Assembly (NCBI GenBank): GCA_014859225.1
Contig: JACUUP010000025.1
Location: forward strand, 1-15,344
Direction of reading: 5' to 3'
Origin: Candidatus Aerophobota bacterium
Lineage (GTDB): Bacteria > Aerophobota > Aerophobia > Aerophobales > B3-G15
DNA: 15,344 nucleotides
Both the position numbers and the translations under genes were made by a program. Each line of letters opens with the position of its first letter. Within the stretch, counting starts at the first letter, position 1. Of the stretch, positions 1,690 to 15,186 are shown one piece after another. A model generated the notes under the pieces. It was not told where the DNA came from and made no database searches. It worked only from the letters and a program-made list of their open reading frames with translations.

Positions 1690-1718
1690 AGTATAGTGCA
1701 GATAAATATTTTTGTCAA
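1690..1718 (-). promoter_or_regulatory. Sigma70-type promoter of the zinc dehydrogenase
   Basis: The minus strand reads TTGACA (1718-1713), a 17-base spacer, then TATACT (1695-1690), close to a perfect consensus. From the -35 through AAAATATTT it is nearly the same as the promoters before the ABC and transketolase operons. The sequence after the -10 lacks their TGAAAT-N3-ATTTCA dyad, so the gene probably lies outside that regulon. Confidence 0.8.
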
Positions 1719-1979: not shown

Positions 1980-2056
1980 TTCTTGGCTGATTTTCCTTAC
2001 TGTTTTTTGTTAATTGGAATTCCTTCCTTATTCCACCCCCTCAGTTCGTAATACTC
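1927..2056. repeat. 130-bp imperfect direct repeat, right copy (partner 1-130)
   Basis: This is the partner of 1-130 (124/130 identical, no gaps). It covers the last codons of the membrane-protein remnant, the short convergent gap and the last 20 codons of the intact aldehyde oxidoreductase. Confidence 0.9.
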
Positions 2057-3814
2057 ATCCAGCATTTTTTCCAGGTCAACAACGTAACCCCTGGCTCCAC
2101 CTTCCTGGTGAGGAATGGAAAGTCTGGCGGGTAGAAGGTCATCTTTGCGGGAAACTCCCAGCTTAGTATTAATTGTTCTTTTCAGGTTAAACCCTCTTTC
2201 CCCGACTCTCATCAACTCATTTATATCCATATTCCAGCCAGTTGCCAGATTTAAAAGCTGGGTAATATGCGGAGGCTGAATCCCGGCACAGAGGCTAAAC
2301 TTGCACATAACCAGAGATTCCATCACTTCACAAAAATCCTGGAAGGTTTTTACTAAAAAAGCTTTCCTTTCAGCGTCAAATCTGTCTAATGGTTTATCTA
2401 AGGCGATTGCCGGGAACGTTATACCTCTTTCAATCCAGTAAGCTGGTGCAGAGATGTGGCAGGCGCCCCGATTTGACGTAGCGTAGACCAGCGCCCAGCT
2501 ATTGAAAGCGCGAGAGTCATGCATGGGAACCTCTAATCCTTTAACGTGTAGTGCAAACTTTTCTGTCTCCTTTCCAATTTTCTCAGCGGCTCTTTTACTT
2601 CCCTCTGCCAGTATATCTCCAATTCCCTCTCTTTGTCCTATTTTTTCAACCATCTTAACCATTGCTTTATGGTTTCCCCAGGTTAAATCTAAACCATCTG
2701 TATCTTTTCTGGAAAGCAGTCCTTTCTCATAACATTCCATGGCGAAAGCAATGGTGCAGCCGGTTGAAATAGTGTCAAGTCCATAGAGCGTGCAAAGCTC
2801 ATTTGCTTTAGCTACTGCTTCAAGGTTGTCATTTAAAAGTAGTGGACCAAGGCTGGCAGCAGTCTCATATTCGGGTCCTTTTCCGCTTACGCCTGCATAA
2901 AACCCCTCGTCAATTTTTATTTTTCTTTCACAGCCTATAGGACAGCCTCTGCAGGCAGCGTATCCGGATAATATGGTTTCAGCCATAAATTGACCAGAGA
3001 CCTTATGGCACCCCTGGGCCCAGAACCCTTGTCTGAAATTCTGGATCGGGACATCACCAAAATCGTGCAAAACGTTCATCAAACCATCTGTGCCGTATGC
3101 ACGTAAAGATGCTCTTGCCGGAGCTTTAATAATAATTTGGTGTAACTGTTTTGCAAAATTGTGGAATTCTTCTTTTTTGGCAATCTGTGGTTTTTTTGTT
3201 CCCCGAATGGCTATCGCCTTCAAGTTTTTTGAACCCATTACTGCTCCCAGTCCGCATCTTGCGGCGAATCTACCATAATCGTTGGCTATGCTGGCTATGC
3301 GGGAAAGTTTCTCTCCGGCCGGGCCAATGCAGGCGACTCTCAACCTTTTATCAGCATGCTCTTTTATCAAGAGGTCCTGAGTTTCAATAGTATCTTTTCC
3401 CCATAAATGTTCAGCGTTTTTGATTTCTACTTTATCATCCTGAATCAAAAGATAAACCGGACTTTTTGCCCTTCCCTTTATAATGATTCCATCTAACCCG
3501 GCCAGTTTTAATTCAGCTCCAAAATAACCTGCAGCATGTGCTTCTCCCCAGATTCCCGTGAGGGGGGATTTAGCCGAAACCACGTATCTGCTGCAACAGG
3601 GTGCCGATGTTCCGGTAAGCGGACCTATTGTAAAAACGAGAACATTTTCTGGAGCAAAAGGATCAGTATTCCAGTCCATTTCCTGCAGGATTTTTGCTGC
3701 CAATCCACATCCACCTAAGTATCTTCTGGCTATTTTTTCATCCAGGTTTTCAAAAGATACCCCTGGCTTCTCAGATAAATTCACATTTAGAATTTTACCA
3801 GTGTATCCGAACAT
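1997..3814 (-). CDS. aor: Tungsten-type aldehyde:ferredoxin oxidoreductase
   Basis: At 605 residues it matches the usual length of the AOR family, which interconverts aldehydes and carboxylates with ferredoxin using a bis-pterin tungsten or molybdenum cofactor and one [4Fe-4S] cluster. The start MFGYTGKILNVNL and the N-terminal half with GPLTGTSAP and KSPLTGIWGE are typical. Cluster cysteines Cys288, Cys291 and Cys295 lie in CRGCPIGC, with the fourth probably Cys504 in VMCKFSLC. The pterin motif region LDTISTGCTIAFAME is at 346-360. An ideal AGGAGGT precedes the ATG, and the upstream fumarase-type beta gene ends 19 bases away, so it is the last gene of the long operon. Its likely role is to oxidise an aldehyde made by the pathway, or to reduce an acid for the alcohol dehydrogenases. 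The substrate is unknown. A 19-codon copy of its 3' end survives at 71-130. Confidence 0.95.
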   Translation of the reverse strand: MFGYTGKILNVNLSEKPGVSFENLDEKIARRYLGGCGLAAKILQEMDWNTDPFAPENVLVFTIGPLTGTSAPCCSRYVVSAKSPLTGIWGEAHAAGYFGAELKLAGLDGIIIKGRAKSPVYLLIQDDKVEIKNAEHLWGKDTIETQDLLIKEHADKRLRVACIGPAGEKLSRIASIANDYGRFAARCGLGAVMGSKNLKAIAIRGTKKPQIAKKEEFHNFAKQLHQIIIKAPARASLRAYGTDGLMNVLHDFGDVPIQNFRQGFWAQGCHKVSGQFMAETILSGYAACRGCPIGCERKIKIDEGFYAGVSGKGPEYETAASLGPLLLNDNLEAVAKANELCTLYGLDTISTGCTIAFAMECYEKGLLSRKDTDGLDLTWGNHKAMVKMVEKIGQREGIGDILAEGSKRAAEKIGKETEKFALHVKGLEVPMHDSRAFNSWALVYATSNRGACHISAPAYWIERGITFPAIALDKPLDRFDAERKAFLVKTFQDFCEVMESLVMCKFSLCAGIQPPHITQLLNLATGWNMDINELMRVGERGFNLKRTINTKLGVSRKDDLLPARLSIPHQEGGARGYVVDLEKMLDEYYELRGWNKEGIPINKKQ

Positions 3815-3833: not shown

Positions 3834-4427
3834 TCAGTTTACTGTTTTTATGAACATATCTTGCATTTTTTTCAGGGCTTTTTCTTTCACTTCCTGATAT
3901 AGGCTCTTTCCTTGAGAGTCCATTCCCACTATTAGAGGGCCAAAACACTTCGCCTCAAGAACCCAGATGGCCTCGGGCACACCTAAATCTAACCAGTGTA
4001 CCTGTTTAATGCTTTTTACTCCTTCTGCCAGCTTTACCGCGCAACCTGGTGGGGCTTGTAGATAAATTCCTCCTATCCTCTGCAATGCCGCAAGAGTGTC
4101 CTCTCCCATCCCCCCTTTTCCTATTATAGCCTTGACTCCAATATCACCCAGCATGCGGGTATAAGGTTCCATCCGGATGCTGGTAGTTGGACCTATTACC
4201 CTTAGTATGTATTTTTCGTCTACTTTTTCCACTACAGGTCCTGCATGAAAAATGACAGCACCTTTGAATTCAAGAGGGAGTTGTTTTCTTTCAGATAGGT
4301 ATTCTTTCATTCGCAGATGAGCCATATCTCGTGCGGTGAGTATTGTACCGCTGATATGGACGATGTCTCCTATCATCAAATCAGTCAGGTTGCTTGTTAC
4401 AGGTGCCATTAATTGGACATTTTGCAT
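3834..4427 (-). CDS. Fumarase/tartrate dehydratase-type hydratase, beta subunit
   Basis: This 197-residue protein corresponds to the C-terminal domain of class I fumarases and to the beta subunit of two-subunit fumarases and L-tartrate dehydratases. Visible family signatures are SGTILTARDMAH at 26-37, GPTTSIRMEPY at 79-89 and IGKGGM at 102-107. It pairs with the alpha subunit 36 bases upstream to form the iron-sulfur enzyme, which adds or removes water on a C4 dicarboxylate or close relative. A modest GGGG-type ribosome site lies about 7 bases before the ATG. Whether the real substrate is fumarate/malate, tartrate or another hydroxy-dicarboxylate cannot be told from this subunit. Confidence 0.9.
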   Translation of the reverse strand: MQNVQLMAPVTSNLTDLMIGDIVHISGTILTARDMAHLRMKEYLSERKQLPLEFKGAVIFHAGPVVEKVDEKYILRVIGPTTSIRMEPYTRMLGDIGVKAIIGKGGMGEDTLAALQRIGGIYLQAPPGCAVKLAEGVKSIKQVHWLDLGVPEAIWVLEAKCFGPLIVGMDSQGKSLYQEVKEKALKKMQDMFIKTVN

Positions 4428-4463: not shown

Positions 4464-5360
4464 TTAGAATATTCTTTGTATTGTAGCATCCGGGAATATT
4501 TTTATTCCACCTTTTCTTGCCACCCAGCAGTGGAAATTCACTGCCACCGGGGCGATGGCAGTATGAGTGTGGGAAAGTTCAATTTTAACCGCTAAAGCGG
4601 TGGTATCACCTCCCATGCCAGCAGGTCCTATGCCTAAGCTATTTACGGCTTGCAAGAGATAAGATTCCAGGTTACTTATGCCCGGGTCAGGGTGAGTATC
4701 TCGCCAGTCCCTGATACTTACTGCTTTTCTGCTCAGCCTTGCTGCAACATCCATCTGTCCGCCAATACCTATTCCCACAGCAACAGGTGGGCAGGGTTTG
4801 CCACCTGCTTCAATCACCGCTCTCAAAATAAACCGCTTCAAGCCCGTGTATTTTTTCCCAAGTTGAGCTGGGGTAAAAATCTTCAAGGCATTACCCAGTT
4901 CAGCTCCACATCCCTTGAAACTGATTATGAGCTGGAGATAATTTTGTCCGGGAACGTACTGGTATTCCATATTGGGAATGCCGATTCCGGAGTTATTCCC
5001 GGTATTTTTCCGGGTCAAGGGATGAACCATGCTTGGTCTTAGATATCCATCTTTTGTGGCAGCCTGTATAGCTTTCGGTAAACTGTCCTGGATATCTTGC
5101 AGGTTAGATTGTTCACCAAAACTTATATAGCAGGTAGGAAAACCGGGAGATTGACATACGGGTTTTTGTTGTTGTTTCGCCAGTTTCGTATTCACAAGCA
5201 TTGTTTCTAATATATCTTTGGCAGTTTTGTTTTTTTCTTTTTCTTTTGCTTCTTTGAGCAATGTTAGACAATCTTCAGAAATTCCCGTACAGACATCCTT
5301 AACCAGCCTGTATATCTGCTCATACATATTCGTAGCACTTTTTGATATTATTTTATGCAT
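4464..5360 (-). CDS. Fumarase/tartrate dehydratase-type hydratase, alpha subunit
   Basis: This is the N-terminal-domain equivalent of class I fumarases and carries the catalytic [4Fe-4S] cluster. Numbering from the GTG at 5366, the three expected cluster cysteines are Cys71 (PVCQSPGFP), Cys192 (GKPCPP) and Cys280 (VNFHCWVAR). Other typical blocks are SFKGCGAELGNALK, GIGIGGQMD and GIGPAGMGGDTTALAVKI. I chose the ATG at 5360 (298 residues) because AGGAG sits 8 bases before it but only 2 bases before the GTG at 5366. The first cluster motif is unusual: the family normally has Cys-Gln/Glu-Asp-Thr-Gly, but here it is Cys-Gln-Ser-Pro-Gly. The third is also atypical (Cys-Trp-Val rather than Cys-His-Ala). 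The enzyme may thus act on something other than fumarate. It lies about 70 bases after the MmgE/PrpD gene with no clear terminator between. Confidence 0.9.
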   Translation of the reverse strand: MHKIISKSATNMYEQIYRLVKDVCTGISEDCLTLLKEAKEKEKNKTAKDILETMLVNTKLAKQQQKPVCQSPGFPTCYISFGEQSNLQDIQDSLPKAIQAATKDGYLRPSMVHPLTRKNTGNNSGIGIPNMEYQYVPGQNYLQLIISFKGCGAELGNALKIFTPAQLGKKYTGLKRFILRAVIEAGGKPCPPVAVGIGIGGQMDVAARLSRKAVSIRDWRDTHPDPGISNLESYLLQAVNSLGIGPAGMGGDTTALAVKIELSHTHTAIAPVAVNFHCWVARKGGIKIFPDATIQRIF

Positions 5361-5433
5361 TACCACTGCTCCTATCCACCCATTTTTTCACTCTGAGATA
5401 TTAGCTCTGAATTTTTTTATTCTATCTCCTGAA

Positions 5434-6795
5434 TCAAAAGATATCCTGGAAAAAAAGCGACATATCATGGATCTGTTCCAGGCTCCTCACTTTTTTTAGG
5501 AGAGTCTCTATCCTGGCAGGAGATAAAACCTTTCCAGCCAACTCCTTAAATTTTTCCTCAAGCTCCTCCTGCGAGAGAGGGTTCTGGGGAGAGCCCCGGG
5601 GATAATCTACCGAGGCTCTATATTTTTTGCCATCCCGGGTGCTTATCTCCAGAATACAGGGCCATTTTTCCGGATACCGGGCATCCAATTTCTCATCTAC
5701 CTTTAGCCTGGTTATTTGCATAAGTTCCTTTATATCCTTATCTTTCAGTTTCTCCTCGCTGAACTCATCCAGGCTCACCTTTCCATATTTTAGTGCCAGG
5801 GCAACACAGAAGGGCAAACTGAATTTTGCCTGGTAGGCGGTTTGAGGAGAAAAGCTTTTCTCTCCCCCCGCTATGTTTAAAGCAGTGGTGTAGGTTGACA
5901 GGGTAATATGTGCAATTTGCTTATAGTTAAGTTCATGGTTTGTAATTAGTTGCTTTGCCCCATCTATAGCTGAATGGGTGTGGCGGCAGGAGGCATAAGG
6001 TTTAAAGGAGACCTCCATTATTTTGTAATCTTTACCCAGGTTTTTGGTTATTTTTCCAAAATGGCAGTTTTCACTGGTGACCCTGCAGAACCCTTTTTCT
6101 CCTTCCAGTATCTTTCTTGCTCCTGTGAACCCCTTCCTGGCAAGAAGAGCTGCTAAAAGTCCGTTCTGGGCGGCTTTTGCCGGATGAAGCTGTTTGCTCA
6201 TTGCCCCATCAATAAGAAACTCCCACAAGCCTCCAGCCTGTGTTCCTGCATTACCCAGGGCATTTATCATCTGGTCTTTGTTCAGTTTGAACACTTTACC
6301 CGCAGCCACACAGGAGCCAAAGTTGCCACAGGTGGCAGTGGTGTGCCAGAGTTTGTAGTGACTGGGACCCACCGCCTCCCCGATTCTGATGGAGGCATCG
6401 TATCCCAGGATTAGGGAAGTGAGAAAGGTTTTACCGTCCGTTTTTTCCTTCTGGCAAGCTGCCAGGGCAGAGGGGATAACCGCTGCTGCCGGATGATAAG
6501 CTGCTCCATGATGGGTATCATCAAGCTCTAAAATGTGAGACATGGCTGCATTTGCCAGGGCGGCATTGAGGCAGGAGTTTTTCCGGGAATGATTTATCAC
6601 AGTTGCCTCTTCCACTCCTCCCTCCTCATCGATGAGAGATACCATGATGCGAGCCGCATCTTCTATGGAGCCAGCCAGAGCCGACCCCAGCCAGTCCAGG
6701 AAACATTGCTTTGCTTTTTCTACAGTATCCGGAGTGAGCTGGAGGTATCCGGTTTTTACCACGAAGTCTGCCAGAGTTTGGGTAACTTTACTCAT
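5434..6795 (-). CDS. MmgE/PrpD-family protein (methylcitrate dehydratase/aconitate decarboxylase-like)
   Basis: This 453-residue protein belongs to the MmgE/PrpD family. Known members dehydrate 2-methylcitrate, decarboxylate cis-aconitate or epimerise iminodisuccinate, all with di- or tricarboxylates. Signatures are CFLDWLGSALAGS near the N-terminus and the long block NAAMSHILELDDTHHGAAYH followed by PAAAVIPSALAA. I start it at the ATG at 6795 (MSKVTQ), which has AGGAGG six bases upstream. The longer frame from 6834 lacks such a site and overlaps the lyase remnant. The start overlaps the stop of that remnant by 8 bases (ATGAGTAA), so the two were once translationally coupled. The exact reaction cannot be chosen from sequence. 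The neighbouring fumarase-type hydratase and lyase remnant point to a branched or N/O-substituted dicarboxylate. Confidence 0.9.
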   Translation of the reverse strand: MSKVTQTLADFVVKTGYLQLTPDTVEKAKQCFLDWLGSALAGSIEDAARIMVSLIDEEGGVEEATVINHSRKNSCLNAALANAAMSHILELDDTHHGAAYHPAAAVIPSALAACQKEKTDGKTFLTSLILGYDASIRIGEAVGPSHYKLWHTTATCGNFGSCVAAGKVFKLNKDQMINALGNAGTQAGGLWEFLIDGAMSKQLHPAKAAQNGLLAALLARKGFTGARKILEGEKGFCRVTSENCHFGKITKNLGKDYKIMEVSFKPYASCRHTHSAIDGAKQLITNHELNYKQIAHITLSTYTTALNIAGGEKSFSPQTAYQAKFSLPFCVALALKYGKVSLDEFSEEKLKDKDIKELMQITRLKVDEKLDARYPEKWPCILEISTRDGKKYRASVDYPRGSPQNPLSQEELEEKFKELAGKVLSPARIETLLKKVRSLEQIHDMSLFFQDIF

Positions 6796-6985
6796 CTTCT
6801 TCCTCCTTTTTACGTGCAGCCTTTGTAGAGGCAATCACCTTATCTGTTGAGGATAGAGAAAGCCCAAGATAGTTGGCAGGGTCAAGGAGTTTTTCAATCT
6901 CATCCTGACCAAGGTGTCCTCTTATCTCAGGGTTCTCCATTAGTAGCTTTTTAAAGGGGATGTTTTGCTCAAAGCTTTTCGCCCT
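6788..6985 (-). pseudogene. C-terminal remnant of an adenylosuccinate-lyase-family gene
   Basis: An open minus-strand frame of 65 codons has no start codon. It reads RAKSFEQNIPFKKLLMENPE, then IRGHLGQDEIEKLLDPANYL, then GLSLSSTDKVIASTKAARKK and EEEDE-stop. The block F-x-x-LL-x-(E)NPE, HL-x-x-(D/E)E(I/L), LLDP-x-NYLGL is typical of the C-terminal domain of adenylosuccinate lyases and related aspartase/fumarase-superfamily lyases, normally about 450 residues long. An in-frame TAA (6988-6986) and the transketolase C gene, ending 22 bases beyond, leave no room for the rest. An internal deletion inside the operon is the simplest explanation. Its stop overlaps the start of the MmgE/PrpD gene. The lost enzyme probably cleaved a C-N or C-O bond to release fumarate or a similar product. 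Confidence 0.7.
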
Positions 6986-7006: not shown

Positions 7007-7942
7007 TCAGGAAACAATTTCCCTTGCCTTATCTGCAATATTTGATGCAGTGATACCGTATCTTTCCAGTATTTCAGGGTGAGCTCCAATTACCACAAAT
7101 GTGTCCGGGATGCCAATTCTTTTTACCGGCACACATTTTTCTTCGGCAATCACTGTTGCTACCGACTCACCCAATCCTCCCCAGAGGTTGTGCTCCTCTA
7201 CTGTCACTATGCCCCTGGTCTCCTCTGCTGCTCTTATAACGGTTTCTCTGTCCAGGGGTTTGATGGTATGGATGTTGATGACCCTGGCATCTATACCTTC
7301 TTCAGCCAGCTCATCAGCTGCCTTTAGTGCTTCACTGACCACAAGTCCGGTAGCAATTAGGGATATATCTTTTCCTTCTCTCAGGGTGACTGCTTTGCCC
7401 ATTTCAAAGTTATAGTCGTTCTGGTAAATGATCGGCTCATTACTTCTCCCTATCCTCATGTACACAGGACCTTTATGCTCTACGGCAGCTCGTACTGCTT
7501 TTCCCATTTCTTTGCCATCAGCCGGAACGATAATGCTCATGTTGGGAAGAGACTTTAATATTCCTATGTCCTCCAGGGCATGATGGGTGTTTCCCAGGAC
7601 GCCGCCAGCCACTCCACCACAGTAGCCGACAAATTTCACATTGGCATTGGAGTAGCAAACATCGGTTCTTATCTGTTCTAAAGCTCGCATGGAGAGGACA
7701 AAGGCGTGGGCAAATACAAAAGGAATTTTTCCTGAATGAGCTAACCCGGTGGCAATGCCCACCATATTCTGTTCAGCTATCCCTGTTTCCACGGTCTGCT
7801 TTGGTATTCTCTCTTTCATGGTGGGGAACCCAAAGGACACTCCTACGTCTGCGGTCAAGACAAAAATGTCGGGATTTTTCTCCGCCAGCTCCAGAACCGT
7901 CTCCCGAAATACATCACGCATACTTGTGCTTTTTTCACTCAT
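7007..7942 (-). CDS. Transketolase, C-terminal subunit
   Basis: This 311-residue protein carries the pyrimidine-binding and C-terminal domains of a split transketolase. The thiamine-activating glutamate is Glu57 in ETGIAEQNM. VFAHAFVLSMRALEQIR and the later PVYMRIGRSNEPIIY are typical of archaeal and anaerobic two-subunit enzymes. Together with the N subunit encoded 15 bases upstream it moves a two-carbon ketol unit between sugar phosphates or related aldehydes. A GGAGA ribosome site precedes the ATG. Such split pairs often sit in specialised catabolic operons instead of the housekeeping pentose phosphate pathway, and the shared promoter with an importer regulon supports a dedicated role here. 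Confidence 0.95.
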   Translation of the reverse strand: MSEKSTSMRDVFRETVLELAEKNPDIFVLTADVGVSFGFPTMKERIPKQTVETGIAEQNMVGIATGLAHSGKIPFVFAHAFVLSMRALEQIRTDVCYSNANVKFVGYCGGVAGGVLGNTHHALEDIGILKSLPNMSIIVPADGKEMGKAVRAAVEHKGPVYMRIGRSNEPIIYQNDYNFEMGKAVTLREGKDISLIATGLVVSEALKAADELAEEGIDARVINIHTIKPLDRETVIRAAEETRGIVTVEEHNLWGGLGESVATVIAEEKCVPVKRIGIPDTFVVIGAHPEILERYGITASNIADKAREIVS

Positions 7943-7957
7943 GGTTATCTCCCATAT

Positions 7958-8806
7958 TCATTTTAACTTTGTCAGAGCTAAATCAATTTCTCTAATAGCC
8001 TGCCTGGCTTCATCATTGTCAGGTGCTTTATAATGCCATACTACCTGATTTTCCATGAAGGACACACCTTTCCCTTTGATGGTATGGGCAATAATTATCC
8101 TTGGTTTTTCTTCTTTGTACCCAAAAACTCTCTCAAGGGTACTCAGAATATCTTCAATGTCGTTTCCATCCATCTCTTCAACATACCAGCCGAAACTTTT
8201 CCATTTATCCTTCAATGGTTCAATATTCATAACTTCTTTTACCGGACCATCAATTTCCAGCTTGTTGCAGTCAATAATCCCTGTAAGGTTATCAAGTCTG
8301 TAATGAGCTGCAGCCATTGCTGCTTCCCATACTGTTCCTTCCTGGAGTTCCCCATCGCCCATAACCGTAATTACTCTATATTTTTTATTATCGGATTTAG
8401 CCGCAATAGCCATACCTATGGCTATAGGTAGACCATGTCCTAAGGAGCCGGTTGATATTTCTACTCCTGGCACGGCGAGGCAATCAGGGTGACCGCCCAG
8501 ACAGCTATCCAGTTGGCAGAAGGTATCCAGTTTTTCCATGGGGAAAAATCCTTTTCTCGCCAGAGCAGAATAAAGTGGCAGGCAGCCATGACCCTTACTC
8601 AATATAAATCGGTCCCTGTTGAGCCAGTCAGGATTCTTGGGGTCAATCCTCAGTTGGTGAAAAAAAAGCACCGTGCAGATATCTGTCCAGGACAGTCCCG
8701 GACCTACGTGACCGCATCCAGCTTTAAGTGACATCTGAATGGAATCTCTTCTGATAAACGCAGCCATCTTTTTCAATCTTTTAACCAGTTCCGCATCTTG
8801 GACCAT
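7958..8806 (-). CDS. Transketolase, N-terminal subunit
   Basis: This 282-residue protein is the thiamine-diphosphate (pyrophosphate) binding half. The motif GDGELQEG begins at 150 and is closed by Asn181 about 30 residues later. Conserved substrate/cofactor histidines are visible at His33 (GHVGPGLS), His73 (SKGHG), His106 (GGHP) and His124 (GSLGHG). An excellent AAAGGAGG precedes the ATG. It is the first gene of the operon, about 120 bases from the promoter and operator at 8908-8958. The His33 motif has Pro-Gly where many transketolases have other small residues, a minor variation of uncertain meaning. Confidence 0.95.
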   Translation of the reverse strand: MVQDAELVKRLKKMAAFIRRDSIQMSLKAGCGHVGPGLSWTDICTVLFFHQLRIDPKNPDWLNRDRFILSKGHGCLPLYSALARKGFFPMEKLDTFCQLDSCLGGHPDCLAVPGVEISTGSLGHGLPIAIGMAIAAKSDNKKYRVITVMGDGELQEGTVWEAAMAAAHYRLDNLTGIIDCNKLEIDGPVKEVMNIEPLKDKWKSFGWYVEEMDGNDIEDILSTLERVFGYKEEKPRIIIAHTIKGKGVSFMENQVVWHYKAPDNDEARQAIREIDLALTKLK

Positions 8807-8907
8807 TATTTTCCTCCTTTTTGGTCTAAAAGTATTATCAAAAATTCTTGCGCATCCCCCTCCAATCCTTTATTAACGATATTGACTTGCTTCTGTTTAT
8901 CCACTAC

Positions 8908-8924
8908 GTGAAATAAAATTTCAC
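8908..8924. promoter_or_regulatory. Dyad operator before the transketolase operon (site A)
   Basis: A 17-base dyad, GTGAAATTTTATTTCAC on the minus strand, has perfect 7-bp arms around TTT. It continues into GTAGTGGATAA. It sits just downstream of the -10, overlapping the expected transcription start, so binding would repress. The layout TGAAAT-N3-ATTTCA resembles the operator type of KdgR-like IclR regulators, from memory. It is shared with sites at 12961-12977 and 13085-13101. Confidence 0.75.
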
Positions 8925-8929
8925 TATAT

Positions 8930-8958
8930 AGCGTAGAACAGAGAAGTATTTTTGTCAA
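8930..8958 (-). promoter_or_regulatory. Promoter of the transketolase-to-oxidoreductase operon
   Basis: The minus strand has TTGACA (8958-8953), 17 bases, then TACGCT (8935-8930). It is nearly identical over about 65 bases to the distal ABC-operon promoter. No other clear promoter was found before the downstream minus-strand genes down to 1997, so it probably drives all of them. Confidence 0.75.
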
Positions 8959-9032
8959 CCCCTGGTGACAAGATTGCTCAAATTCATTGTTACAATACGT
9001 GCAAAGAAGCTACTAAGGATGTAAAAATATAA

Positions 9033-9242
9033 ATATACCGAAGAAGATACCACGGTTATTTTGGGACGAGTCTGGGTTTTACCCCAAAAGGAAGGTTGGA
9101 AAAACATGTAAGCAAATGTTCTAAATGTAAAGAGAGAATGTTGGAAATACTTGAGAATAGAATTTTTGCCGGGACTCTAAAAGGGTTTACTGAGTATTTG
9201 CTTTATTTGATTGCGCCAAGGGTTACACCCTTTACTATGTAG
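9033..9242 (+). pseudogene. Possible remnant of a zinc-finger (anti-sigma ZAS-like) domain
   Basis: A plus-strand frame with no ATG encodes KGRLEKHVSKCSKCKERM followed by LEILENRIFAGTLKGFTEYL. The His-x3-Cys-x2-Cys spacing, preceded by Leu-Glu, is that of the zinc-binding anti-sigma (zf-HC2/ZAS) domain. It is bounded by TAA at 9030-9032 and TAG at 9240-9242, and its end overlaps the permease gene in antisense. There is no ribosome site and no start, so at best it is a fragment. The match rests on one short motif and could be chance. Confidence 0.25.
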
Positions 9243-10105
9243 CGCTGCAGTATCACAAAAACCATCAGCATGGGAAGAATTGAAAGAATGGTGAAGGCAT
9301 TTACTACTGACCAGTCCTGCACGCCGACGCTCTCTCTTAGTAGAAATAACTGATAAGGCAGGGTTCGGGCACTTACGGAAGTGGTAAAAGCAAGAACGAA
9401 CGGAAATTCATTCCAGGATTCCCTTATACACATGATCAATGCTGTGACAATTCCAGGCCAGCTTACAGGGATGAGGATATACCAAAGGATCTGCCAGAGC
9501 GAAGCTCCCTCTATGGTTGCCGCCTCATCCAAATCATTAGGGATAGCCGCAAAAAAACCGGCCAATACCCATGAGGCAAGGGGAATTGCCGTAGCTGAAT
9601 AGGTAATGGTTAACCACAACCTGGAATCCATTAATCCCAGTGAAACCATTAATTCATAAAGGGGTATTATCAAGCTTACCCGGGGGAGAATTCGGGGAAT
9701 TAATATTGCCAGCAGTAGCACATGACGCCAGCGAAATGCATAACGAGCAAAGGCATAACCTGCCAGAATGCTTGCAGCGACGGCAACAAGGGTGGAGCTT
9801 ATTGCCAGAAAGGTGCTGTTGAAAAAAACAACCGGGAAATCCTTCCAGGCTAACACCTCCCCGTAGGCTCTCAAAGAAGGATTTTTAGGCAAAAAATCCC
9901 AGAGTGTTCTTGCTGAATATATCTCAACCATACTCTTAAAAGAGGCACTCAAACTCCAGAGTATAGGAGTAATGAACATGATGGTGAGGATGATTGTAGG
10001 AATCCAGACCCAATTCTTGGAGATGATATACATCATTCGCTTCATACTGTTGCGTCTGATGGACTTAAAAGGCTTTTGTTGCCTGGCTTTTGCCGTGTTC
10101 CACAT
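9203..10105 (-). CDS. Sugar ABC transporter permease, MalG type (CUT1)
   Basis: This 300-residue inner-membrane protein has about six hydrophobic segments. The cytoplasmic EAA loop reads DEAATIEGASLWQILWYILI followed by PVSWPG (from about residue 193), which docks the ATPase. It is a family member of MalG-like permeases that import sugars, oligosaccharides or polyols. The start is taken as the ATG at 10105 because AGGAG lies 7 bases upstream. A GTG at 10123 would add six residues but lies before that ribosome site. It follows the other permease after 66 bases and is the last gene of the transporter operon. Confidence 0.93.
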   Translation of the reverse strand: MWNTAKARQQKPFKSIRRNSMKRMMYIISKNWVWIPTIILTIMFITPILWSLSASFKSMVEIYSARTLWDFLPKNPSLRAYGEVLAWKDFPVVFFNSTFLAISSTLVAVAASILAGYAFARYAFRWRHVLLLAILIPRILPRVSLIIPLYELMVSLGLMDSRLWLTITYSATAIPLASWVLAGFFAAIPNDLDEAATIEGASLWQILWYILIPVSWPGIVTALIMCIRESWNEFPFVLAFTTSVSARTLPYQLFLLRESVGVQDWSVVNAFTILSILPMLMVFVILQRYIVKGVTLGAIK

Positions 10106-10171
10106 TATTTTTCTCCTGCACACTTTTTTAAGACTGACGAAGCTACCAGAAATAATCCAACTACTCCCATG

Positions 10172-11059
10172 TCAGACCCTGAAGAGTTTTAGATATACAA
10201 AGCTCATTGCGATATTTATAACTAAAATGACTGTCATTATCGCATAGCCGGTGGCATAATCCAGCGCGTGGAAAGCAACTCTATACATAGCTACTGCCAT
10301 TACCTCTGTAGCACGCCCCGGTCCACCTCCTGTAGTGGGCAGTACAATATCAAAGATGCTAAAACTTGCAAAACTTAACCATATAAGGCTTATCCCGATC
10401 ATTGGTTTTATAAGCGGGACGGTTACATGCCAGAGCGTACGAAGTCCATAGCACCCATCTATAGCGGCTGCATCGTAGTAATTGGGGTCGATTGTCTGAA
10501 GGCCAGCAAACATGACCAGAATTGCAAAAGGGCAAAGAAACCAGGTGTTGGTTAGTATTAATACCAGCATAGCCCGTCCCGAATGCCCCAACCAGCTAAC
10601 CGCCTGGAAACCTAAACTTTCGTATAGCACATAGATGAGCCCCCCGTTCCCACTGAACAAAAAGCGAAACATGACCGCTGCTGCTATTCCAGAAACTAAC
10701 CAGGGCACCAAGCTAACTCCACGGAAAAAAGCTTTAAAGATTCTAATACTATTTAAACAGAGGGCAAAACTCAAAGAAAGAAACAATCCGAGTCCTATAG
10801 TCCCGCCTGCCAGGATAACGGACCTCAGTAAGGAATTTTGGAACCTGGGATTGGTAAAAAGTCTTAAATAGTTATTCAATCCGGCAAATTCACTTTCCAG
10901 AGTAAACATGTCGTAAGTATATAAAGAACCGATAAAACCAGACACCACAGGATAAGCTAATATGAGCATAACAAAAGCTAAAGCCGGTGCGATGAGAAAA
11001 TATGGGTACATTGCCTTAAGCATTTTTTGTCTTTTATACGCTTTGCTTGCAGGGTTCAA
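10172..11059 (-). CDS. Sugar ABC transporter permease, MalF type (CUT1)
   Basis: This 295-residue protein has six predicted membrane spans. Its EAA-like loop is YDAAAIDGCYGLRTLWHVTV followed by PLIKPM (from 195), with Asp replacing the first Glu. The conserved TTGGGPGRATEVMAV lies before the last span. The start is TTG at 11059, 8 bases after a strong AGGAGG. No ATG lies near enough to use that site. It partners the MalG-type permease downstream and the binding protein upstream. It is separated from the binding protein by a strong hairpin, which probably lowers permease expression relative to the binding protein. Confidence 0.93.
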   Translation of the reverse strand: MNPASKAYKRQKMLKAMYPYFLIAPALAFVMLILAYPVVSGFIGSLYTYDMFTLESEFAGLNNYLRLFTNPRFQNSLLRSVILAGGTIGLGLFLSLSFALCLNSIRIFKAFFRGVSLVPWLVSGIAAAVMFRFLFSGNGGLIYVLYESLGFQAVSWLGHSGRAMLVLILTNTWFLCPFAILVMFAGLQTIDPNYYDAAAIDGCYGLRTLWHVTVPLIKPMIGISLIWLSFASFSIFDIVLPTTGGGPGRATEVMAVAMYRVAFHALDYATGYAIMTVILVINIAMSFVYLKLFRV

Positions 11060-11089
11060 ATATACAACCTCCTCTCAGCAGCGCTTAAA

Positions 11090-11120
11090 GCAGGTCGGGG
11101 ATACTAATACCCCGACCTGC
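11090..11120 (-). terminator. Intercistronic hairpin between binding protein and permease
   Basis: GCAGGTCGGGG (11090-11100) and its exact complement (11110-11120) form an 11-bp G+C-rich stem with a 9-base loop. On the transcribed minus strand only a short TTTAAG follows, not a long U run. It is therefore more likely an mRNA-stabilising or partial-termination element than a full terminator, as is common after binding-protein genes. Confidence 0.75.
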
Positions 11121-11135
11121 CTCTAACAACCCAAT

Positions 11136-12413
11136 CTATCTTAAGCCAGCTGCTTCATTGAATTCTCTTTGATATCTTCTTGCCATCTCAGCCGGATCAG
11201 CAGTAACATTCGTTAATGATTCTTGCAGCAGGTCCTTCCAAGTTTCAAATAACTGTATGATGCGGGGGTGAGTTGGCATCGGTTCCATCTGGTCCATATA
11301 TTCAAGTGGGTGTGCATCTGCAGCCCAGGGCTTAGCTGCAAGATAACGAGGATCGTCAAAAACACTCATAGTCGTGGAATCCTGGTAGGTGCTTGCCACT
11401 GACACGGTTATGTCCGGACGAGCCAGGTAGCGAAGTACAAGTGAAGCCTCGTAGGGATGTTTGGTCTGGTTACTTACATAATAAGGCCACGCCATTAAGA
11501 ATAATTTACGTTCGTTCTCTGCTCCTTTGCGCCCAGGCATGGGTACTTGACCCCACATTTTTTTGTAAGGTCCCAATTCCTTCTGTATCATGGGGTAGAT
11601 ATTCCAGCCAATAGGAGCCATGGCAGCCCGGCCAGCTGCAAAGCCTATTCTCATTTCTCCACTGTCCCAGGCAAGCGTTTCAGGATGAACGAGACCTTCC
11701 CTGGTCAGAGTTTGGTGTACTTTTATGAAATAGCGTCCAGCCTCTGAATCGATTTGAGGAACTCCATTTACATGTCCTCCACCCATAGCCATAAAGATTC
11801 CAACCGACCAGACCGGTTCCACTACACGGGAACCAATCATGGAAACACCGACCATATCCGGAGTTTTAACTTTCCTGGCAATATCAATCACTTCATCCCA
11901 ATTGTTGGGAGGTTGCAACCCATGTTTTTCCAGTACATCTTTGCGATAGACAAACCAGCTTCCATTAGTTCCAAATCCGTGAACTGCAATGCCACGCGGA
12001 GCTCCATCGTGCATAACAAAGTCCCACGCCAGCTGGGAAATATCTGCGTAAAGCTCAGGGTCCTCTTGTTTCCACCTCTCAATCAACTTCGTCATATCCT
12101 GCATCATTCCTGCAACCAGAAGGGGAGTTACCGAATAATGTCCACACTGCGCGATATCCGGTGATATTCCTGCTCTATAAGCCCTGGAAAATGAGGCAAC
12201 AGTTTCCTCCAGGGGAACTGTATCTACGTTAAGCTTAATATGAGGATATTGTTGTTGGAAGCTCTTGAAATTATCTTCCGGTATGAACATAGACCTCCCA
12301 AACCACATATTAAGTTCTACCCCTTGAGCATACGTAGCTGGCTGAATGACGAAACCAAAGCCTACTACAAAAAAACAAATTAACATGGTTAAAGCAAGCT
12401 TTTTATTACGCAA
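11136..12413 (-). CDS. Extracellular solute-binding protein, family 1 (sugar ABC importer)
   Basis: This 425-residue protein starts with a Sec signal peptide: basic RNKK, a hydrophobic core (LALTMLICFFVVGFGFVI) and probable cleavage after TYA near residue 29. No lipobox Cys is evident. The mature part begins VELNMWFGRSMF and has the family 1 pattern of maltose/sn-glycerol-phosphate-type binding proteins, for example PDIAQCGHYSVTPLLVAGMM and the GRAAMAPIGWN block. It should capture a carbohydrate-like ligand outside the membrane and deliver it to the two permeases. The start is TTG at 12413 with AAAGGGGG seven bases upstream. An internal ATG ten codons later would remove the positive N-region. 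No ATP-binding subunit is encoded in this window, so a shared MsmK/UgpC-like ATPase elsewhere is likely. The ligand is not known. Confidence 0.92.
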   Translation of the reverse strand: MRNKKLALTMLICFFVVGFGFVIQPATYAQGVELNMWFGRSMFIPEDNFKSFQQQYPHIKLNVDTVPLEETVASFSRAYRAGISPDIAQCGHYSVTPLLVAGMMQDMTKLIERWKQEDPELYADISQLAWDFVMHDGAPRGIAVHGFGTNGSWFVYRKDVLEKHGLQPPNNWDEVIDIARKVKTPDMVGVSMIGSRVVEPVWSVGIFMAMGGGHVNGVPQIDSEAGRYFIKVHQTLTREGLVHPETLAWDSGEMRIGFAAGRAAMAPIGWNIYPMIQKELGPYKKMWGQVPMPGRKGAENERKLFLMAWPYYVSNQTKHPYEASLVLRYLARPDITVSVASTYQDSTTMSVFDDPRYLAAKPWAADAHPLEYMDQMEPMPTHPRIIQLFETWKDLLQESLTNVTADPAEMARRYQREFNEAAGLR

Positions 12414-12714
12414 TTTGATTCCCCCTTTCTATTTATGGCAACATGCTTCATTTTTCTCTGAAAGCTTCCTGAAAGAAATTTAATTATTTAACGCTTCTCT
12501 TCTTTTTAGAAAGCTTTCTTTTCCTGGCTAATGGACCTCTTATTTCTTATTTTATCACCTCCTCCTGGCCCTATTTTAGCCTCCTCCTTCAAAGCTCTTA
12601 CTACTATTGCAATACTGTTTTTCTTTTGTCAAGCGGGCTTTTTGAAGGACAAGTTTTTTTGAATTTCTTTGGATAAACTTAAGCAAAGGCTCTGCCGAAT
12701 TTCGTGTTTCCTCC
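12414..12714 (-). other. Leader of the ABC transporter operon
   Basis: No gene is seen here. It is the transcribed leader between the proximal promoter and the binding-protein start. It contains the 12-bp palindrome AGAAAGCTTTCT at 12508-12519, whose role is unknown, and several purine-rich stretches on the transcribed strand without a following start codon. Confidence 0.4.
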
Positions 12715-12746
12715 TCATCTCATATGAATTATTCCATATGAGATGA
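12715..12746. promoter_or_regulatory. Perfect 12-bp dyad operator at the proximal ABC promoter
   Basis: TCATCTCATATG (12715-12726) and its exact complement (12735-12746) are separated by 8 bases. The dyad covers the -10 box and the spacer of the promoter at 12728-12755, so a bound dimer would block RNA polymerase. The half-site is unlike the TGAAAT sites, which points to a different regulator. It has no U run and is unlikely to be a terminator. Confidence 0.75.
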
Positions 12747-12755
12747 ATTTGTCAA
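12728..12755 (-). promoter_or_regulatory. Proximal promoter of the ABC transporter operon
   Basis: The minus strand has TTGACA (12755-12750), a 16-base spacer and AATAAT (12733-12728). It would give a leader of about 310 bases before the binding-protein gene. Confidence 0.6.
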
Positions 12756-12960
12756 GAAAAAACGTGAAATAACTATCATAAAGAACTACCCAGCTTCTGA
12801 GGAGATTGAACTATGTGATGGTCAAAACTTTCGGCACTTTCTGAAAACTTTCACTCCCACAAAAAACTGACTCATCTACCTGCTTGTCGTCTCCTTCCCG
12901 GCATTAAATTTCACTTTTTTTGTAAGTTCTTATAGAATCAAGTTATTCTTTCTCCACCTC

Positions 12961-12977
12961 ATGAAATAAAATTTCAC
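12961..12977. promoter_or_regulatory. Dyad operator at the distal ABC promoter (site B)
   Basis: On the minus strand this reads GTGAAATTTTATTTCAT, arms TGAAAT/ATTTCA around TTT, then GAGGTGGA. It is in the same position relative to the -10 as site A, and the two promoter blocks match almost base for base from TTGACA to ATTTCA. Confidence 0.75.
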
Positions 12978-12982
12978 TATAT

Positions 12983-13011
12983 AGTGTAGTATAGAAAAAT
13001 ATTTTTGTCAA
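12983..13011 (-). promoter_or_regulatory. Distal promoter of the ABC transporter operon
   Basis: The minus strand has TTGACA (13011-13006), 17 bases, then TACACT (12988-12983). It is back to back with the iclR promoter, with 32 bases between the two -35 boxes. The leader to the binding-protein gene would exceed 550 bases and pass through the proximal promoter and its dyad. Confidence 0.7.
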
Positions 13012-13043
13012 CCCTTCGCTTTTTTATGTGTTAACGCGCGCAG

Positions 13044-13071
13044 TTGACAACAACATTTTCTACTTTATACT
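13044..13071 (+). promoter_or_regulatory. Promoter of the iclR-type regulator gene
   Basis: TTGACA (13044-13049), 16 bases, TATACT (13066-13071). Expected start of transcription is near 13078, only about 20 bases before the GTG start codon. Confidence 0.8.
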
Positions 13072-13084
13072 ATAGAACAAAATC

Positions 13085-13101
13085 TTATTTCACGTAGTGG
13101 A
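13085..13101. promoter_or_regulatory. Operator half at the iclR start (site C, autoregulation)
   Basis: TTATTTCACGTAGTGGA is identical over 17 bases to the downstream half of site A (8900-8916) and has the same distance to the -10. The upstream TGAAAT arm is degraded to ACAAAAT. The site runs over the GTG start codon at 13097, so the regulator probably represses itself, perhaps more weakly. Confidence 0.65.
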
Positions 13102-13897
13102 CAAAGTGGATAAAAACACGAACGATAAATCATCGGTACGATCTGTGCAAAGAGCAGTGGATATACTGGAAGCTCTGAAGGATAAAATTCCAGAAAAAAC
13201 TGTTACAGAGTTGAGTCGCGAATTGGGTTTGAGTCCCACTACGATATACAGACTTCTTGGCACCCTGAAAGAGAGAGGTTTTATTGAAAAGGATGCAAAC
13301 ACAGCTAAATACAGGTTGGGAATGAAAGCTTTTGAATTAGGGAGTGCTGTGGTTAGAAGGATGAACATAAGAAAAGAGGCTGAGCCAATTCTGATGGAGC
13401 TGGCAGAAAAAACCGGGGATTCGGCTTACCTTATTGTTCCATACCAGGACGAGGCTCTTTGTCTGGAAAGAATAGATGGCGATAATTATCTAAAGTCTCT
13501 TTCGCTGGTACTGGGTGACCGAATGCCCCTGCATATTGGTGCTGGACCCCGTGTGCTCCTTGCCCATTTACCGGAGAGTGAAATTGACAGAATTATTGCC
13601 AGCAAGGGTCTTGCCCGATGGACAGATAAAACAATCACAGACCCCTTCATATTAAAGGAAGATCTCAGGCAGGTTAGAGAGCAGGGTTATGCACTGAGCC
13701 TGGAGGATGCTAACAAGGGTGTCGCTGCTATTGGGTGTCCCGTGAGGGACCGTACCGGAAAAGTTGTGGCATCAATAAGTGTTGGGGGTCCCTCTATCTA
13801 CTTCGAGCCTGAAAGCGTTGACAAAATGGTTCCGCTGATTAAAAAGGCAGCAGAGAATCTTTCCAGAAGACTGGGATATGGAGTAAATCAGGAATAA
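13097..13897 (+). CDS. IclR-family transcriptional regulator
   Basis: This 266-residue protein has the two-domain IclR layout. A winged helix-turn-helix spans about residues 13-75 (VRSVQRAVDILEAL, then TVTELSRELGLSPTTIYRLL). A C-terminal GAF-like ligand-binding domain spans about 80-260, with GDRMPLHIGAGPRVLLAHLP, GYALSLEDANKGVAAIGCPV and the end block VASISVGGPS. IclR proteins bind small acids or sugar derivatives and usually act as dimers or tetramers on short inverted repeats. The start is GTG at 13097 with no Shine-Dalgarno and a leader of only about 20 bases; a second GTG lies at 13106. Its own promoter, the divergent ABC promoter and the transketolase promoter share the same operator sequence, so it is the obvious candidate regulator. 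Confidence 0.93.
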   Translation: MDKVDKNTNDKSSVRSVQRAVDILEALKDKIPEKTVTELSRELGLSPTTIYRLLGTLKERGFIEKDANTAKYRLGMKAFELGSAVVRRMNIRKEAEPILMELAEKTGDSAYLIVPYQDEALCLERIDGDNYLKSLSLVLGDRMPLHIGAGPRVLLAHLPESEIDRIIASKGLARWTDKTITDPFILKEDLRQVREQGYALSLEDANKGVAAIGCPVRDRTGKVVASISVGGPSIYFEPESVDKMVPLIKKAAENLSRRLGYGVNQE

Positions 13898-13986: not shown

Positions 13987-15186
13987 ATGTCGGATGAAAG
14001 AAAAGTCGCCAAAAAAGGGTACTTTCACTGCCATATGCCCACCAGGGTTATTTTCGGGCCGGGAAGACTGAGTGAAATCGGGGATGTGTGTCGGGAATTT
14101 GGAAAAAAGGTTCTCCTCTTTTCTGACCCCTTTCTGAAGAAAGTGGGACTAACCGAGCGAGTTATTGGATACCTGAAGAAAGAGGGGTTAGGAGTAACAA
14201 CTTATGATACCATCAAATCTAATCCTTTATGTACCAGTGTCGATGAGGCTGCCGGAATTTTAAAAGAAGAAAAATGCGATTTTGTCATTGCCCTGGGCGG
14301 AGGAAGTACCATAGATACGGCAAAAGCAGCAGTTGTAGTGGCAAGCAATGGAGGAAAAAGCTGGGATTACGTGTGGGGTTCAGATCATGAGCCTGTCTCC
14401 GTAACTGATGTCTCTTATTCTATCATCACCATTCCTACTACCTCTGGAACCGGTTCAGAAGTTACTCCCTGGATAGTGATAAGTAACCCTGCATTAAAAG
14501 GTCAAAAAGCAGCGTTTGGAGATTATCGTCTGGTTGCTAAAGTGAGTGTTGTTGACCCCGAGCTTATGGTGAGTATGCCCCCTGCACTTACAGCTTCCAC
14601 AGGAATTGATGTGCTGTCTCATACCCTGGAAGCATATGTGAACGTCAACGCCACTCCCTTAGCCAATATGTTAGCTCTGGACGCTATAAAACTGGCAGCA
14701 GAGAACCTGCCCACAGCCTTTGGGAATGGCAACAATCTGGAGGCCAGAGCGAAGATGGCTTGGGCCGATGTGCTGGCTGGTTGGACCATAAGTCATGCAG
14801 GGACGGGATTACCTCACGCTATGGGAATGGCTGCCGGTGGTTTGTACGATATACCCCATGGAGTGAGCATAGCCCCCTGCCTGGCAAAATGGATGGAGTT
14901 TAGCTTGGCTTCCAGCTTGAACAAGTTTGCCAGCGTTGCTGAGGCTATGGATAATGATGTAAAAAACATGCCTCTTCGTAAAAAAGCTGAGAAGAGCTCA
15001 GAATTGGTAAAACAGCTTCTAAAAGATGTGGCTCTGGACGTTACCTTTAGCGATTTAAGGGTCACCGAAAATGACATAGATTACCTGGTGGAGGTAGTCT
15101 ACACCCGGTTTGGAGGGGATGTAGAGTCTTGTCCGCGCAAACCTACTCGAGAAGAGGTAGCTGAACTTTATCGTCAATGTCTATAA
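13987..15186 (+). CDS. Iron-dependent (group III) alcohol dehydrogenase
   Basis: This 399-residue protein is a standard-length member of the iron alcohol dehydrogenase family, which reduces aldehydes to alcohols with NAD(P)H. Nucleotide binding is shown by GGGSTIDTAK at 104-113 and TTSGTGSE from 151. The metal ligands are Asp208 and His212 (GIDVLSHTLEAY), His277 (TGLPHAMG) and His291 (IPHGVS), with spacing as in lactaldehyde reductase FucO. GGAGG precedes the ATG by seven bases. It lies 89 bases after iclR on the same strand and is probably co-transcribed. It could remove a short aldehyde such as glycolaldehyde or lactaldehyde made by the pathway; this is inference. No clear separate promoter or terminator was found in the gap before it. 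Confidence 0.95.
   Translation: MSDERKVAKKGYFHCHMPTRVIFGPGRLSEIGDVCREFGKKVLLFSDPFLKKVGLTERVIGYLKKEGLGVTTYDTIKSNPLCTSVDEAAGILKEEKCDFVIALGGGSTIDTAKAAVVVASNGGKSWDYVWGSDHEPVSVTDVSYSIITIPTTSGTGSEVTPWIVISNPALKGQKAAFGDYRLVAKVSVVDPELMVSMPPALTASTGIDVLSHTLEAYVNVNATPLANMLALDAIKLAAENLPTAFGNGNNLEARAKMAWADVLAGWTISHAGTGLPHAMGMAAGGLYDIPHGVSIAPCLAKWMEFSLASSLNKFASVAEAMDNDVKNMPLRKKAEKSSELVKQLLKDVALDVTFSDLRVTENDIDYLVEVVYTRFGGDVESCPRKPTREEVAELYRQCL

Follow-up and report, generated by a model that had tools for sequence, protein, structure and literature searches.

The locus raises the question of whether an ABC importer, a split-transketolase operon and an IclR-family gene answer to one regulator. The window is the whole stretch of DNA analysed here, 15,344 nucleotides from a Candidatus Aerophobota bacterium. 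The original prediction was that one promoter-operator signal ties the three units together. This is supported: the signal is unique in the genome and matches the published grammar of IclR operators. Very probably, one neighbouring IclR regulator jointly controls the importer, the transketolase operon and the gene that encodes it.

Promoters and the genes behind them

Each of the three units has its own promoter, and a fourth promoter carries part of the same sequence.

8930..8958, minus strand: promoter A, TTGACA at 8958-8953, 17-nt spacer, TACGCT at 8935-8930; split-transketolase operon
12983..13011, minus strand: promoter B, TTGACA at 13011-13006, 17-nt spacer, TACACT at 12988-12983; importer operon
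13044..13071, plus strand: promoter C, TTGACA at 13044-13049, 16-nt spacer, TATACT at 13066-13071; IclR gene
1690..1718, minus strand: promoter D, before a Zn-dehydrogenase gene, with the A/B core and without the operator (BLAST and sequence)

The positions predicted for A, B and C are correct, as are the shared TTGACA and the similar spacing (spacers of 17, 17 and 16 nt). The predicted common element after the -10 is also present, and a constant 13 nt separate the -10 from TTATTTCA at A, B and C. From TTGACA to box 2 of the operator described below the distance is 44 nt at A, 44 nt at B and 43 nt at C. The 1-nt difference is due to the spacers, and since the spacer alone differs, the operator lies equally far from the -10 at each promoter. 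When the promoters are aligned on TTATTTCA, A and B are near-identical, GGGTTGACA through GTGGA, and C has sequence in common mainly past the -10. Over the 52 positions that run from TTGACA to TTTCAYG inclusive, A and B share 46, and BLAST of block B against the genome gives 86% identity with A over 66 bases (E=1.5e-16). A and C are identical at 20 of 21 positions of the box 2-3 element, while their promoter cores differ (22 of 69 positions agree beyond TTGACA). The third match of block B in the genome, 1718-1685 on the minus strand (85% over 34 bases, E=1.2e-4), falls at promoter D, and the sequence after the -10 of D is quite unlike that of A and B. The near base-for-base match of A and B over 50 or more bases is thus real, but part of it is promoter core that also occurs at D. 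On the sequence evidence, the promoter core and the operator are separate modules, each kept independently: D has the core without the operator, and C has the operator with another core.

The genes behind these promoters, with the regulator, are as follows.

13097..13897, plus strand: IclR-family regulator, HTH_IclR and IclR_C, presumed binder of the sites
13987..15186, plus strand: iron-containing alcohol dehydrogenase, after an 89-nt gap behind the IclR gene
11136..12413, minus strand: solute-binding protein of a sugar-type ABC importer, nearest solved structure SmoF (7nbz), a weak match
10172..11059, minus strand: importer permease, MalF/UgpA type
9203..10123, minus strand: importer permease, MalG/GlcU type
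7958..8806, minus strand: split transketolase, N-terminal subunit, nearest solved structure 6yak, a split-chain transketolase
7007..7942, minus strand: split transketolase, C-terminal subunit (TktC)
5434..6834, minus strand: MmgE/PrpD-family protein, 172 nt after TktC in the same direction
4464..5366, minus strand: fumarase/tartrate dehydratase, alpha subunit
3834..4427, minus strand: fumarase/tartrate dehydratase, beta subunit
1997..3814, minus strand: aldehyde:ferredoxin oxidoreductase family protein

Genes within each operon would be co-transcribed; the iron-containing alcohol dehydrogenase is probably transcribed with the IclR gene, and the MmgE/PrpD-family gene is a probable member of the transketolase operon. 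There is no importer ATPase gene within the window. A sulfosugar pathway was considered, since SmoF is the solved structure closest to the binding protein, and was dropped; the second match is nearly equal, and the window holds no sulfosugar isomerase or glycosidase.

About 540 nt (12414-12950, minus strand) separate promoter B from the first gene of the importer. No Rfam family matches in this region or at the A/B palindrome. Promoter matches of at least 10/12 number 5 in the intergenic region upstream of the importer, against 0.2 expected. They include a second importer promoter at 12715-12755 on the minus strand (TTGACA-16-TG-AATAAT, 11/12). A perfect inverted repeat, with 12-nt arms and an 8-nt gap (12715-12726/12735-12746), overlaps this promoter and probably serves a different regulator as its operator; no other copy of the palindrome was found among the loci analysed. 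A single TTATTTCACGT half-site lies at 12762-12772, just upstream of the -35 of this second promoter.

Architecture of the predicted three-box operator

Downstream of the -10, each of the three promoters runs into the same kind of element.

8898..8924, minus strand: operator A, box 1 GTGAAAT (8918-8924), box 2 ATTTCAC (8908-8914), box 3 GTGGATA (8898-8904); exact published three-box consensus
12951..12977, minus strand: operator B, box 1 GTGAAAT (12971-12977), box 2 ATTTCAT (12961-12967), box 3 GTGGAGA (12951-12957); exact published three-box consensus
13077..13103, plus strand: operator C, box 1 degenerate, ACAAAAT (13077-13083), box 2 ATTTCAC (13087-13093), box 3 GTGGACA (13097-13103)

The general layout is GTGAAAT-N3-ATTTCAC-N3-GTGGA, which at A reads GTGAAAT-TTT-ATTTCAC-GTA-GTGGATA. 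The boxes alternate in direction (right, left, right) and are 10 bp apart, which is one helical turn and places them on one helix face. The operator starts 5 nt past the -10 at A, B and C. Counted from the predicted transcription start, which falls inside box 1, it covers positions of about +1 to +27. What had been described as a separate GTGGA box is box 3 of this operator. The dyad TGAAAT-N3-ATTTCA, predicted in two copies, is exact at A and B. The third site had been said to keep one arm only; box 1 of C is indeed poor (2 of 5 core bases wrong), but C keeps a complete second dyad, TTTCAC-N3-GTGGA (box 2-3), which is common to A, B and C.

Two consensus groups have been published for IclR operators, group 1 GKTYCRYW3-4RYGRAMC and group 2 TGRAACAN1-2TGTTYCA (Suvorova and Gelfand 2021, PMC8222616). 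Operators of three alternating boxes, with one box pair for each consensus group, were predicted for 32 IclR orthologous groups, and site positions peak at -3 to +1 (PMC8222616). The group 2 pair TGRAA-N5/6-TTYCA is exact at A and B; C fails in box 1, with 2 mismatches. The group 1 core TTYCRY-N3-RYGRA, which shares the middle box, fits TTTCAC-GTA-GTGGA (A and C) and TTTCAT-GAG-GTGGA (B), though not every outermost group 1 base is matched. At C, box 3 overlaps the GTG start codon of the IclR gene at 13097, and the group 1-type pair is centred 2 nt before this codon (-2), within the published peak. The leader of the IclR gene is very short (13078-13106, plus strand), and possible GTG starts at 13097 and 13106 lie in or beside operator C. 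No Shine-Dalgarno sequence is visible before GTG 13097, so the exact start of the gene is uncertain.

Occurrence of the operator sequence in the genome

The genome searched comprises 1,806,108 bases (1.81 Mb), is fragmented and is 91% complete. Random scatter of the motif over the genome would have spoken against the original prediction, and no scatter was seen: in the 1.81 Mb an exact TTATTTCAYGNNGTGGANAAA occurs three times only, at promoters A, B and C. Four further matches carry 3 mismatches each, and the reversed-pattern control gives 3+3 such matches. TGAAAT-N3-ATTTCA is exact only at A and B genome-wide (control 0). These two patterns were derived from the sites themselves, and the published consensus serves as a non-circular test. 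This independent pattern, the merged published core TGRAA-N5-TTYCRY-N3-RYGRA, has three exact matches genome-wide, A, B and one at 2709-2732 of another contig (G000:C241). All three are intergenic, in stop-free frames of at most 67 codons, while the six matches with one mismatch all lie within stop-free frames of 210 to 911 codons. By an estimate from base counts, about 0.1 exact matches per genome would be expected by chance.

The IclR regulator, its paralog and relatives

The gene at 13097 does encode an IclR protein, as had been proposed. The 266-aa product exceeds the Pfam cut-offs for HTH_IclR (E=2.1e-15, 56.7 bits, cut-off 22) and IclR_C (E=3.6e-40, 137.8 bits, cut-off 24). Among solved structures, Thermotoga TM0065 (1mkm) comes closest (E=4.4e-37). 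The protein falls under every NCBIfam equivalog cut-off, among them BhcR (194/350) and KdgR NF011671 (170.4/275 bits). Only two HTH_IclR and two IclR_C domains occur genome-wide, the second pair in a paralog.

10583-11332 of contig C90 (L040, G000:C90), minus strand: IclR paralog, 49% identity, one in-frame TGA

The TGA may mark a pseudogene, or it may stem from an error in the assembly. The paralog sits between two glycyl-radical diol/glycerol-dehydratase-like enzymes, near a ribose-type importer. In its promoter TTGACA-TATAAT is followed by the 17-bp imperfect palindrome GCAAGATTAAATTTTGC, three bases and ACGAAA. The layout is the same in different letters, which fits a diverged specificity.

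Orthologs of the regulator were sought in 98 and in 386 genomes, where the best protein besides the in-genome paralog has 39% identity; a regulator-based contig scan of genomes also gave no ortholog. Apart from that paralog, no homolog above 39% occurs in the 386 genomes, which leaves none for phylogenetic footprinting. A transketolase-based scan returned 80 named loci; none of them carries this set of genes or a syntenic operon, and the gene set is likewise absent from the other related loci examined. Exact dyads in the relatives G015, G007 and G005 were considered as a shared regulon and rejected by their positions: two lie in the same coding gene, one is probably coding and one precedes an operon that is unrelated and has no IclR gene. 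A scan upstream of 34 IclR genes, made with no multiple-testing correction, gave few clear family-type sites and a perfect three-box site only in the window. A weaker site occurs at an IclR gene of a genome from the same order (L032, G003:C104; 29% identity), where TTTCACAAAGTGAAA with an incomplete third box directly precedes the start.

Proposed regulation and alternatives

We propose that A, B and C are candidate operators of the IclR protein 13097-13897, which would act as the repressor of an autoregulated local regulon; we put the probability of this reading at about 0.82. One signal at three units, a divergent IclR gene and the family grammar together give strong support for a local IclR regulon. 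The IclR protein, probably as a dimer or tetramer, would occupy the three alternating boxes and block the start region after the -10. The block would repress the importer operon, the transketolase operon and the IclR gene with the downstream alcohol dehydrogenase. The regulator would be released by an inducer, probably the compound taken up by the importer or a product of its breakdown. We infer both the binding by the IclR protein and repression rather than activation. The placement of the putative operators past the -10 is that of a blocking repressor, which favours repression, short of proof. The regulon may extend beyond the window.

The same protein might bind the same sites and activate at least one unit with an effector, as PcaU and PobR do. 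The IclR family includes activators, these two have three-box sites (PMC8222616), and A and B have poor -10 hexamers (TACGCT and TACACT) that could need help. We nevertheless consider activation unlikely: boxes at about +1 to +27 are placed so as to block polymerase, the usual location of activator sites is upstream of the -35, and TTGACA is perfect at all three promoters. The chance that the sites serve another regulator, either the C90 paralog or a non-IclR protein, with the neighbouring IclR gene a bystander, is small. A paralog with 49% identity does exist, and a fragmented genome, 91% complete, may hide further regulators; but the paralog is interrupted by TGA and has a different palindrome, in the same place, at its own promoter, and the sites fit the IclR grammar, one of them on the promoter and start codon of the IclR gene itself.

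It is quite improbable that A and B simply arose when one promoter block was recently duplicated, in which case their likeness would say little on shared control. Their likeness does extend over core and operator (86% over 66 bases), but C has the operator with a different core (20/21 against A in box 2-3) and D the core without the operator. This pattern points to selection acting on the operator and is poorly explained by duplication alone; a copied site would keep its function anyway. That the palindrome is an RNA hairpin at the transcript 5' ends rather than a protein site is hardly credible. At A and B the 7-nt arms, with a 3-nt loop between them, could form a stem in the RNA. Such a stem would be weak, being AU-rich; the predicted start lies inside the first arm, no Rfam family matches, and C, which has no pairing arm, still keeps the DNA element.

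A possible wider regulon

Repression by the local IclR protein, if extended beyond the window, might bring in the third exact match to the merged consensus.

2709-2732 of contig C241 (L226, G000:C241), minus strand: third exact three-box site, ATGAAACTCTGTTTCATGATACGAAAC / TGAAACTCTGTTTCATGATACGAA, KdgR-like

At the inner pair, T/A in A and B, this site carries C/G, giving a KdgR-like TGAAAC-N3-GTTTCA at C241:2718-2732. It stands directly after a TTGACA-17-TAAAAT promoter. The operon behind it encodes a PfkB kinase most like KDG (2-keto-3-deoxygluconate) kinases, under the cut-off of both NF041633 and NF041332, and a sugar-binding protein. Because only two IclR genes were seen, the site may belong to the regulator of the window; it is possible that a third IclR gene is absent from the assembly, the genome being 91% complete. 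Our most tentative proposal has two joint parts and is rather doubtful: the IclR protein might run a wider sugar-acid regulon that includes the C241 KDG-kinase-like/importer operon, and this regulon might join import, split transketolase, MmgE/PrpD, tartrate/fumarate-type dehydratase and aldehyde:ferredoxin oxidoreductase in one undescribed catabolic pathway.

For a phylum that has been little sampled (17 genomes in the collection), the locus offers a regulon open to testing, and the shared signal, by grouping the genes of an unassigned catabolic pathway, helps to find the substrate. It is also a clean case of a predicted three-box IclR site. A and B carry all three boxes and C only boxes 2 and 3, and the two predicted dimerisation modes could be distinguished at one locus. 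The three-box arrangement itself is of an already known type, and the finding is a useful but ordinary one in gene regulation.

Comparison with known systems

PcaU and PobR are activators for aromatic compounds with sites upstream, whereas the boxes here are downstream of the -10. Their Acinetobacter operators resemble the present ones in having a palindrome and one further half-site (PMC8222616), but their boxes are of the GTNCG type. KdgR of gamma-proteobacteria and Thermotoga TM0065 (PMC3750489) has the same 5 nt between TGAAA and TTTCA. The KdgR-like dyad spacing that had been predicted stands, as the spacing of group 2, but by the NCBIfam cut-off the protein itself is no KdgR (170 vs 275 bits). 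The KdgR operator is TGAAAC-N3-GTTTCA, while A and B read TGAAAT-N3-ATTTCA with an inner pair T/A and not C/G, and the window has no KDG or pectin gene. The closest likeness in layout is to the three-box IclR operators (PMC8222616): box pair 1-2 fits group 2 and pair 2-3 fits group 1, A and B have the exact consensus, and one site lies on the start codon of the regulator's own gene. Unlike those cases, the lineage here is without close orthologs of the regulator, and the first box of C is weak. Autoregulation together with control of an adjacent importer is standard for such sugar regulators (PMC3750489).
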